Below, in pieces: positions 671 to 3,170 of a stretch of 36,089 nt of DNA (position 1 is the first letter of the stretch; each line of letters begins with the position of its first letter). Origin of the DNA: a virus. The stretch covers positions 1 through 36,089 of the IMG/VR virus record IMGVR_UViG_3300027788_000036. One strand, given 5' to 3'. The notes below the pieces were generated by a model, which worked only from the letters and a program-made list of their open reading frames with translations, was not told the origin of the DNA and made no database searches. A program made the translations under genes and the position numbers.

Positions 671-868
671 ATTCTTATTCATTAGAACATACATCTCATC
701 CCAGTTATGTTCTTTATAACAAGATACACAAAAACCTTTGTCATATACTTTGACTTCAATAATCTTCTCAGTTATAACTGGATCACCTTGGCCTAACTTA
801 TAACTTAGTAGACATAAAAATATCATTATGCCTACTATTGCTAGTGTTTCTAGTTTAGTAACAGACAT
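641..868 (-). CDS. Small single-pass membrane protein with CxxC and NW motif, 75 residues
   Basis: Residues 7-24 (ETLAIVGIMIFLCLLSYK) form one strong membrane segment after a short N-terminus. The rest is probably outside the cytoplasm or membrane-proximal. Cys47 and Cys50 (CVSC) could be a metal or disulfide pair. The segment N55-W56-D-E-M-Y-V-L-M-N64 matches the spacing NWxxhxxhhN in the 62-residue membrane protein two genes upstream, suggesting a shared docking module. The start overlaps the preceding gene by 14 bases. The last codons overlap an early promoter. It belongs to a three-gene set of exported or membrane products. Lysis, superinfection exclusion or membrane takeover are possible; none is proven. 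Confidence 0.65.
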   Translation of the reverse strand: MSVTKLETLAIVGIMIFLCLLSYKLGQGDPVITEKIIEVKVYDKGFCVSCYKEHNWDEMYVLMNKNLQTNDTINR

Positions 869-2510: not shown

Positions 2511-2663
2511 TTATTGAACACTATCTATTAATATATTAAGTTCATTAAATAGATCACCATAAGGTGAATCATATACATTATCTAGTGTGTATGTTGTGTT
2601 GTTGACAGTGATTTCATATAAGTCATTGTCTTCATCTATTTTAAATGTTATTTCTTTTATCAT
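2511..2663 (-). CDS. Small acidic protein, 50 residues, function unknown
   Basis: I chose the ATG at 2663 (MIKEITFKIDEDNDLYEITV), because it has the early start context TAATAATTATG and the product looks like a compact beta-type protein from there. The open frame extends upstream to an ATG at 2729, but that extension would translate the tRNA-like hairpin and gives a low-complexity Ser/Thr/Ile-rich leader, so I consider it accidental. The product is acidic, with the C-terminal segment GDLFNELNILIDSVQ. No domain is recognised. Confidence 0.55.
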   Translation of the reverse strand: MIKEITFKIDEDNDLYEITVNNTTYTLDNVYDSPYGDLFNELNILIDSVQ

Positions 2664-2677
2664 AATTATTATATTAG

Positions 2678-2718
2678 TTGAAGTAGTGAGAATCGAACTC
2701 ACATAAACCATTACTTCA
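2678..2718 (-). ncRNA. tRNA-like acceptor/T-arm hairpin
   Basis: Read on the minus strand, TGAAGTA (2718-2712) pairs perfectly with TACTTCA (2685-2679) as a 7-bp acceptor-type stem. Inside lie a 9-base linker ATGGTTTAT and a perfect 5-bp T-stem GTGAG/CTCAC closing the loop TTCGATT, which fits the tRNA T-loop consensus TTCRANN. Position 2678 would supply an A discriminator; CCA is not encoded. There is no D-stem or anticodon arm, so it cannot decode. The linker has a GG pair that could imitate the D-loop contact to the T-loop. It lies between two small early genes, so it may be a processing site (RNase P accepts acceptor/T-stem minimal substrates) or a tRNA mimic. Sequence and geometry are seen directly; function is inferred. 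Confidence 0.5.
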
Positions 2719-2724
2719 TTTGTC

Positions 2725-2758
2725 CTCATCAGTTTGTGTACTATTCAGGTTCGATGAG
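2725..2758 (-). other. Hairpin adjacent to the tRNA-like element
   Basis: On the minus strand CTCATC (2758-2753) can pair with GATGAG (2730-2725) across a 22-base loop. It ends 6 bases upstream of the tRNA-like hairpin, so both may belong to one structured RNA between the 75- and 50-residue genes. The stem is short and the loop long, so stability is uncertain. Confidence 0.3.
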
Positions 2759-2764
2759 TCACCT

Positions 2765-2779
2765 TGTCATGACATTATG
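2765..2779. repeat. 15-bp repeat with palindromic core, copy 1
   Basis: TGTCATGACATTATG here is identical to 3143-3157. The first ten bases form a perfect palindrome (TGTCATGACA). This copy lies directly after the stop of the 75-residue gene on the minus strand and before the tRNA-like element. The flanking bases extend it to the dyad TGACAT-T-ATGTCA. It could be an operator or an RNA-level 3' element. Confidence 0.55.
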
Positions 2780-2782
2780 TCA

Positions 2783-3010
2783 CTATACTAATTCCATATT
2801 TCTTAACATTACTGGAATATTATTAGATGAAGTATAAGATTTGTATTTAGTAAAACAATTCATATTGTTTAATTTATCTTTCATTACTTCATATACAATA
2901 TCATGATTGTAAGTAATTTGAATACCTTTTTTATTAGTGAATGAAATGATTTGGTTTTTACCGATTAGAGACTTTCTTATTACGAATCTCTTTGAATTTA
3001 AAGTTGACAT
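2783..3010 (-). CDS. Small basic protein, 75 residues, function unknown
   Basis: The product begins MSTLNSKRFVIRKSLIGKNQ and continues IISFTNKKGIQITYNHDIVY, a beta-rich, Lys-rich pattern, then a helical stretch (EVMKDKLNNMN). It is basic, with no signal peptide or membrane segment. Early promoter P4 lies 31 bases upstream of its ATG, and the start context is AATAATAACTATG. Downstream come a palindromic repeat and the tRNA-like hairpin before the next gene. A nucleic-acid-binding role is possible, but no family is recognised. Confidence 0.65.
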   Translation of the reverse strand: MSTLNSKRFVIRKSLIGKNQIISFTNKKGIQITYNHDIVYEVMKDKLNNMNCFTKYKSYTSSNNIPVMLRNMELV

Positions 3011-3123: not shown

Positions 3124-3170
3124 GTTGACACAATTGTCTATGTGTCATGACATTATGACATTATAATGTG
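3124..3170. promoter_or_regulatory. Palindrome-rich operator-like segment
   Basis: TGACACA (3126-3132) and TGTGTCA (3141-3147) form an inverted repeat with an 8-base spacer. This overlaps the palindrome TGTCATGACA (3143-3152), which belongs to the second copy of the 15-bp repeat (3143-3157). The density of dyads in under 50 bases, in a divergent intergenic region, suggests protein binding or a replication or expression switch. No known operator consensus is recognised. Confidence 0.4.
3143..3157. repeat. 15-bp repeat with palindromic core, copy 2
   Basis: TGTCATGACATTATG is identical to copy 1 at 2765-2779. On the minus strand it sits at the stop codon of the possible 31-residue ORF. Both copies therefore mark the 3' end of a leftward ORF. 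Confidence 0.55.

Follow-up and report, generated by a model that had tools for sequence, protein, structure and literature searches.

We analyzed a virus record of 36,089 nt (IMG/VR record IMGVR_UViG_3300027788_000036, positions 1 to 36,089; the whole stretch is called the window) and found that a tRNA-like minihelix on its minus strand, located between two small genes, is one copy of a widespread and strongly covarying RNA element of tailed phages. We consider it reasonably probable that phage mRNA is processed at these minihelices by RNase P of the host, probably together with RNase Z; the case for RNase P is the stronger one. The minihelices would then probably cut long viral messages into single-gene pieces.

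The minihelix in the window

The minus strand from 2718 to 2678 reads TGAAGTA-ATGGTTTAT-GTGAG-TTCGATT-CTCAC-TACTTCA-A, and the following parts were assigned (all on the minus strand):

2678-2718: tRNA-like minihelix, identified by sequence, fold, covariation in relatives and the independent model R3
2718-2712 with 2685-2679: acceptor stem of 7 bp, all pairs perfect
2711-2703: bulge ATGGTTTAT of nine bases with GG at 2709-2708, read from the sequence
2702-2698 with 2690-2686: T-stem of 5 bp, all pairs perfect
2697-2691: T-loop TTCGATT of 7 nt, read from the sequence
2678: A at position N73, read from the sequence
2674-2677: 3' tail CTAA, corresponding to C74, T75, A76 and A77, assigned from counts over 138 unique copies

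The predicted fold has a free energy of -10.4 kcal/mol (z -2.75), and equally good folds were obtained for 3 of 200 shuffled sequences. ARAGORN called no tRNA in the window and Rfam gave no match for the minihelix at gathering thresholds. Nine bases replace the D-arm, anticodon arm and variable loop, so that the cloverleaf of a canonical tRNA is absent. An earlier note on this DNA had described the two perfect stems of 7 and 5 bp, the T-loop TTCGATT, the nine-base bulge with its GG and the 3' A, all of which we read likewise; it had taken them for an intact acceptor and T-arm module and not for a decaying tRNA, a view that is borne out by the covariation and the copy numbers given below. A chance hairpin was rejected on the shuffle test, the covariation score and the match of the independent model. 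A second, weak match in the window (805-834, minus strand) was judged to be due to chance, having an E-value of 0.04 and being absent with model R3.

Covariation among relatives

We collected relatives of this locus through the 75-aa protein encoded upstream of the minihelix alone, which gave 31 loci. Most of them carry the same element 3' of the 75-aa gene with stems that differ widely (among them TGACATA/TATGTCA, AGTACG/CGTACT, TGTAGT/ACTACA and AGTAGT/GCTACT), while the bulge AUGG and the T-loop stay constant and the downstream gene changes. A shared element with such different stems is more than chance. In 31 aligned copies 92.7% of the cells are paired and both sides are changed in 104 cells. 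This alignment has a covariation score of 0.756, compared to 0.195 for shuffled and at most 0.12 for slid alignments. Alignment A1 was a gap-free MAFFT alignment not fitted to a model, its sequences having been preselected by the bulge and T-loop pattern; A2 and A3 were model-fitted, which biases their pair counts towards the model. The earlier note had considered that related phages might keep the reading frame through the element and break both stems without compensation. We observed the opposite: the stems are kept by compensatory changes and the downstream gene differs. Its suggestion that the GG could dock on the T-loop is consistent with the presence of GG in all gene-anchored copies, none of which was chosen for it.

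An independent model and the spread of the element

For an independent view we used model R3. Its 74 training copies came from loci that had been selected as Shine–Dalgarno (SD)-type, judged non-Bacteroidota and unrelated to the window (covariation in the training set 0.898 versus 0.178). A covariance-model search had been proposed in the earlier note, and in the search of the window with R3 the minihelix was the sole match, with an E-value of 9.5e-12. The bulge and T-loop letters, which the search patterns had fixed, contribute a part of this score; the stems were not fixed. Among the R3 training copies, many (AACGGTT, AAGGGTA) differed from the pattern by which their own locus had been retrieved. 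Searching 149 and 101 bacterial genomes with models R2 and R3 gave no matches beyond the seed assemblies.

A pattern of bulge and T-loop with a partial acceptor constraint was found in 55 viral stretches, one of them in a 301-kb phage contig, and a near-identical pattern in only 4 stretches of 84,980 species genomes. Three of these four carry the element with phage-like flanks and the fourth is a CRISPR spacer. This spacer, CAAAGGTGTAATGGTTTATTAAGGTTCGATTCCTTAGCA, lies between repeats GTCTTAATCCTTGTTCTAGTGGAATATGGTTGCTGAC in a Cytophagales metagenome-assembled genome (JAAFJE010000003.1, locus L091:1238-1276) and is a copy of the minihelix core, which points to infection of a Cytophagales host by a phage carrying this kind of element. 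A looser pattern matched at least 120 stretches, with both stems forming in 120 of 137 sites among the matches listed, while the same pattern with GG changed to CC matched 7 stretches, none of which forms both stems. Further carriers were found with an AACGGTT version. Marine flavophage relatives of the window usually have one copy and unrelated marine phages about 10 copies per contig. All named carriers are Mycobacterium smegmatis phages (Cuke with 11 copies, Fowlmouth and MrMiyagi with 8 each, Predator with 6 and the Wildcat type with 2).

Consensus architecture

The consensus has an acceptor stem of 5 bp (6-7 bp in the window family), often with one 1x1 position, a D-loop-like bulge (A)AYGGUU plus 2-5 nt, and a T-stem of 5 bp ending in G-C with the loop UUCRANY, followed by A73, C74, D75 and A76. 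Over 138 unique copies we counted A73 in 131, C74 in 135, A76 in 122 and C75 in 2; the subset found with searches that left the tail unconstrained gave C74 in 40, A76 in 37 and C75 in 1 of 42. C75 is thus avoided, so that no CCA is encoded. The stem ends 11 (108 copies) or 12 (29 copies) layers from the T-loop in 137 of the 138 copies, the window copy having 12. G53-C61 is invariant and the T-loop conserved across the aligned copies, and a tRNA-like elbow could therefore form.

Expanded versions with the same ends and a larger middle occur in five relatives (L027, L029, L008, L009 and L020), one example being GGGCGTG...CACGTCC-ACTAA; their inserts range in length from some tens of nucleotides to about 100 nt. 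They are located at L008:8101-8195 and at about 9897-10025 in L009, 10845-10918 in L020, 7329-7405 in L027 and 8325-8440 in L029, some of them upstream of other early genes. The ACTAA tail is kept and the inserts, with the recurring motifs GTAAATCG and GGCGAAAGC, take the place of the anticodon arm. Together with the minihelix, which would be their smallest form, they may make up one family of tRNA-like elements.

Placement between genes

By crude gene calls, 113 of 134 unique copies are intergenic, compared to 31% expected at random, and an ATG-led open reading frame (ORF) begins within 200 nt in 131 of the 134 (median distance 38 nt). In the marine contigs L037, L056 and L083 and in Cuke and Predator the copies occupy one early intergenic gap after another and are always on the coding strand, with the stop codon mostly about 8-10 nt before the element. 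The order in these SD-type loci is element, ACGA, hairpin, purine-rich ribosome-binding site and ATG. In 55 of 65 SD-type copies the element is followed by a perfect hairpin of 5 bp or more (2.9 in shuffles); copies of Bacteroidota type show no excess of downstream hairpins (4 of 32, 6.7 in shuffles). Within a genome, neighboring copies differ for the most part in their stems and often in their hairpins, which looks like conservation of an RNA and not like repetition of DNA.

For Predator gp49 (L337) and Cuke gp43, gp44 and gp52 (L308) the start codon was annotated either within a minihelix or upstream of it; these genes probably start at the ATG that comes after hairpin and ribosome-binding site. 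In two contigs with genome-type identifiers the elements (two adjacent copies at L326:1000-1106 and one at L332:3114, all on the minus strand) are followed by runs of GGCAAGG-like repeats with no clear hairpin and ribosome-binding site. These are possibly prophages, or the element has another use there.

Proposed processing by RNase P and RNase Z

Bacterial RNase P RNA stacks on the tRNA elbow, where interference mapping marks G19, G53, A58 and G71; A73 pairs with U294, C74 and C75 pair with the P15 loop and A76 stacks on the resulting helix, and a stem length of 12 bp serves as a ruler, with acceptor/T-arm hairpins being cut correctly (PMC11143913). Most of the conserved letters of the element fall on these published contacts (elbow GG/UUC-A, G53, A73, C74 and A76). 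At the sequence level the copies have the elbow features (T-loop UUCRA, D-loop GG, G53-C61), and their 11-12 layers correspond to the stack of about 12 bp from the T-loop. RNase Z matures precursors without CCA and also reads the elbow (PMC4810234); the copies are CCA-less and have these elbow features.

We propose that the minihelix is a natural minimal tRNA mimic that would serve as a processing site in polycistronic phage mRNA. Host RNase P would recognize the elbow and the A73/C74/A76 tail, measure 11-12 bp and cut 5' of the stem. As the copies lack C75 and so do not encode CCA, host RNase Z could make a second cut after A73, and the minihelix would be excised. The upstream message would then end shortly past its stop codon, or past a pseudoknot or hairpin; the modules found upstream of the minihelix in the window family would become the 3' end of this message if RNase P cuts. 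The downstream message would start at C74 and in many phages have a protective hairpin near this 5' end, ahead of the ribosome-binding site, with presumed effects of cleavage on stability and translation. The loss of C75 fits a site that is cut at both ends and not destined to become a CCA-ended tRNA. No other elbow reader known to us accounts for both the A-C-D-A tail and the placement between genes, and for this reason we favor processing. The earlier note had offered three roles, and of these an mRNA-processing signal fits best (intergenic position, repetition, RNase P determinants), a decoy or a plain 3' stabilizer less well. That note had no sight of the element's spread, its A73-C74-D75-A76 tail, the hairpin cassette that follows it, the pseudoknot upstream or the expanded forms. 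We also considered a broader proposal, in which the element is a general and so far undescribed phage RNA class, common to unrelated phages of Actinobacteria, Bacteroidota and other hosts, that would be excised by RNase P and RNase Z as the phages' own tRNA punctuation. Selection against C75 would then keep the released minihelix from being charged or recycled as a tRNA. We rate this as about evenly balanced.

Several observations weigh against processing. C75, one of the three tail pairs of RNase P, is missing, a 5-bp acceptor stem with a 1x1 position is shorter than that of a real tRNA, and RNase Z does not require the universal A76. The window has a single copy, and many phages related to it by their terminase lack the element (the isolated phages elemo, phi13:2, phi46:3 and MW202828 have no clear copy), so that it is neither essential nor universal in this phage group.

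Among the alternatives, the best survivor is a cap without excision. Here RNase P cuts on the 5' side, or nothing cuts, and the downstream mRNA keeps the minihelix as a structured 5' end that protects it or aids ribosome loading. The position just upstream of start codons (median 38 nt) agrees with this, as does the better conservation of RNase P contacts than of anything specific to RNase Z; however, the second hairpin at once downstream in SD-type phages would be redundant as a 5' cap and the avoidance of C75 points to CCA-less 3' processing, and we therefore regard a cap as unlikely. More doubtful still is a regulator that remains uncut and whose elbow is bound by another partner (the L1 stalk of the ribosome, a tRNA-modifying enzyme or a protein of the phage), and which would control translation or transcription. 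Several cellular partners are indeed known to read the elbow (PMC4810234) and start codons are close by, but such a regulator leaves the A-C-D-A tail at the tRNA 3' position and the repetition between successive genes unexplained. A released RNA could also act as a decoy that titrates tRNA enzymes or tRNA-targeting defense nucleases, given that several tRNA enzymes recognize minihelices and some genomes have many copies. Without an anticodon it is no lure for anticodon nucleases, and its position in mRNA leaders with hairpin and ribosome-binding site is not accounted for, which makes a decoy very improbable.

We give hardly any credence to a feature at the DNA level (degenerate tRNA gene, attachment site or recombination linker between gene modules): phage attachment sites often copy tRNA 3' ends, one phage tRNA-Gln has the same 21-nt 3' stretch and the downstream genes vary among relatives, but all stems show compensatory changes, so that the covariation refutes it as far as sequence can, neighboring copies in one genome have different stems, unlike a fixed attachment core or a homologous linker, and there are up to 11 copies per genome. 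The readings as attachment site and as decayed tRNA were rejected on the covariation and on copy number, an attachment site being expected in one copy with a core identical to the host tRNA 3' end. No integrase was seen, though no exhaustive search for one was made.

Relation to known RNAs

The closest relatives in fold are synthetic acceptor/T-arm hairpins (those of McClain and Altman; AT1 and the series derived from pre-tRNASer), which bacterial RNase P cuts at the canonical site (PMC11143913). They have the same acceptor/T-arm type of fold but are laboratory designs for which PMC11143913 describes no conserved D-loop GG bulge, whereas the phage element is natural, resides in mRNA and lacks C75. 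The tRNA-like domain of transfer-messenger RNA (tmRNA, RF00023) likewise has an acceptor stem and a T-arm but no anticodon arm. In locus L184, two copies match the ends of the RF00023 model with everything between deleted (E-value 2e-4, below the gathering score). The best score is 20.2 bits against a gathering score of 47, and the window fragment reaches 12.3 bits, so that the element falls short of a tmRNA match. It has no tag ORF, tmRNA pseudoknots or CCA and is placed between genes in mRNAs. No other Rfam family was matched beyond chance; the matches to Plastid-ycf2 (E-value 0.24, opposite strand) and mir-1175 (E-value 3.9) were attributed to chance.

Intergenic processing signals that leave hairpin-protected ends are also formed by the RNase III sites between T7 early genes, which involve another enzyme class and another RNA fold than the phage element. 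In mitochondria, according to PMC11144196, RNase P and RNase Z excise tRNA-shaped elements that lie between the genes of long transcripts and thereby free mRNAs. That punctuation uses real tRNAs, while the phage elements are minihelices of 41-46 nt that are unable to decode and whose cleavage is proposed. Other natural non-tRNA substrates of RNase P are T4 gene 32 mRNA, phage C4 antisense RNA, M3 RNA and plant-virus 3' tRNA-like structures (PMC11143913). Like the phage element, these are tRNA-like or hairpin signals in viral RNAs, and RNase P cuts them; unlike it, they are single cases with other folds and not a conserved, repeated class of intergenic minihelices. A full-text literature search found no such element in phage mRNAs, though most subscription papers, including some mycobacteriophage genome papers, lay outside it. 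The minihelix thus appears to be an undescribed natural, repeated and anticodon-less form of tRNA-like processing signal.

If our proposal is true, the bacterial enzymes that trim tRNAs would also be a general mRNA-processing machine for phages. Prokaryotes would then have their own version of the tRNA punctuation of mitochondria, and the synthetic minihelices with which RNase P has been studied for decades would have an equivalent in nature. Many unannotated intergenic gaps would be explained and true gene starts would be easier to place in phage annotation, and the element could be a portable part for cutting synthetic operons.

Flanking genes and upstream modules

The window has terminase, portal and structural genes of flavobacterial phage type. 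Its closest named relative by terminase is MW202828 (74%), followed by Flavobacterium elemo and Cellulophaga phages. Around the minihelix we assigned three further features on the minus strand:

2783-3010: upstream small early gene of 75 aa, from the ORF list, conserved in the window family (31 relatives)
2721-2764: upstream module, a hairpin pairing 2758-2753 with 2730-2725, with compensatory stems in relatives
2511-2663: downstream small gene of 50 aa with ATG at 2663; the gene identity differs among relatives while the minihelix is kept

No relative of the 75-aa protein was found among named phages. Likewise, neither megablast with the first 12 kb of the window nor blastn with the cassette region of marine contig L056 matched any named phage. 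The listed ORF of 72 aa (2511-2729, minus strand) has its start upstream of the minihelix and runs across it; most likely the downstream gene itself begins at the ATG at 2663.

The short hairpin that the earlier note had reported at 2725-2758 also held up, its stem being replaced with compensation in relatives (CTCATC/GATGAG, CTCACC/GGTGAG, CTGTCC/GGGCAG, CTATCC/GGATAG). A candidate pseudoknot pairing in this module (AGGT 2764-2761 with ACCT 2750-2747) is invariant and hence unproven. Some relatives of the window have the same module, while in many others an H-type pseudoknot occupies this place and ends just 5' of the minihelix. Its two stems, chosen by eye, both vary with compensation (ACTGT/ACAGT, AGTGT/ACACT, AGTCG/CGACT, CGAG/CTCG; ACTTGTT/AACAAGT, AGTATTC/GAATACT, ACTATTC/GAATAGT). 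Thus, at 2721-2785 (minus strand) of the window and at the same place in loci L011-L094 we observed two interchangeable modules, both compensated, namely the H-type pseudoknot or GGUGA-stem-GAACC...AAACU-stem, and neither was matched to a known family. A hammerhead-like reading of the upstream sequence CUGAUGAG was dropped, as no GAAA partner strand was visible and Rfam gave no match. Finally, ATAATGTCATGACA occurs on the minus strand at 3140-3170, upstream of the 75-aa gene, and at 2765-2790, just past its stop codon; the two sites match over 23 nt (91%) and are a possible operator-like repeat.
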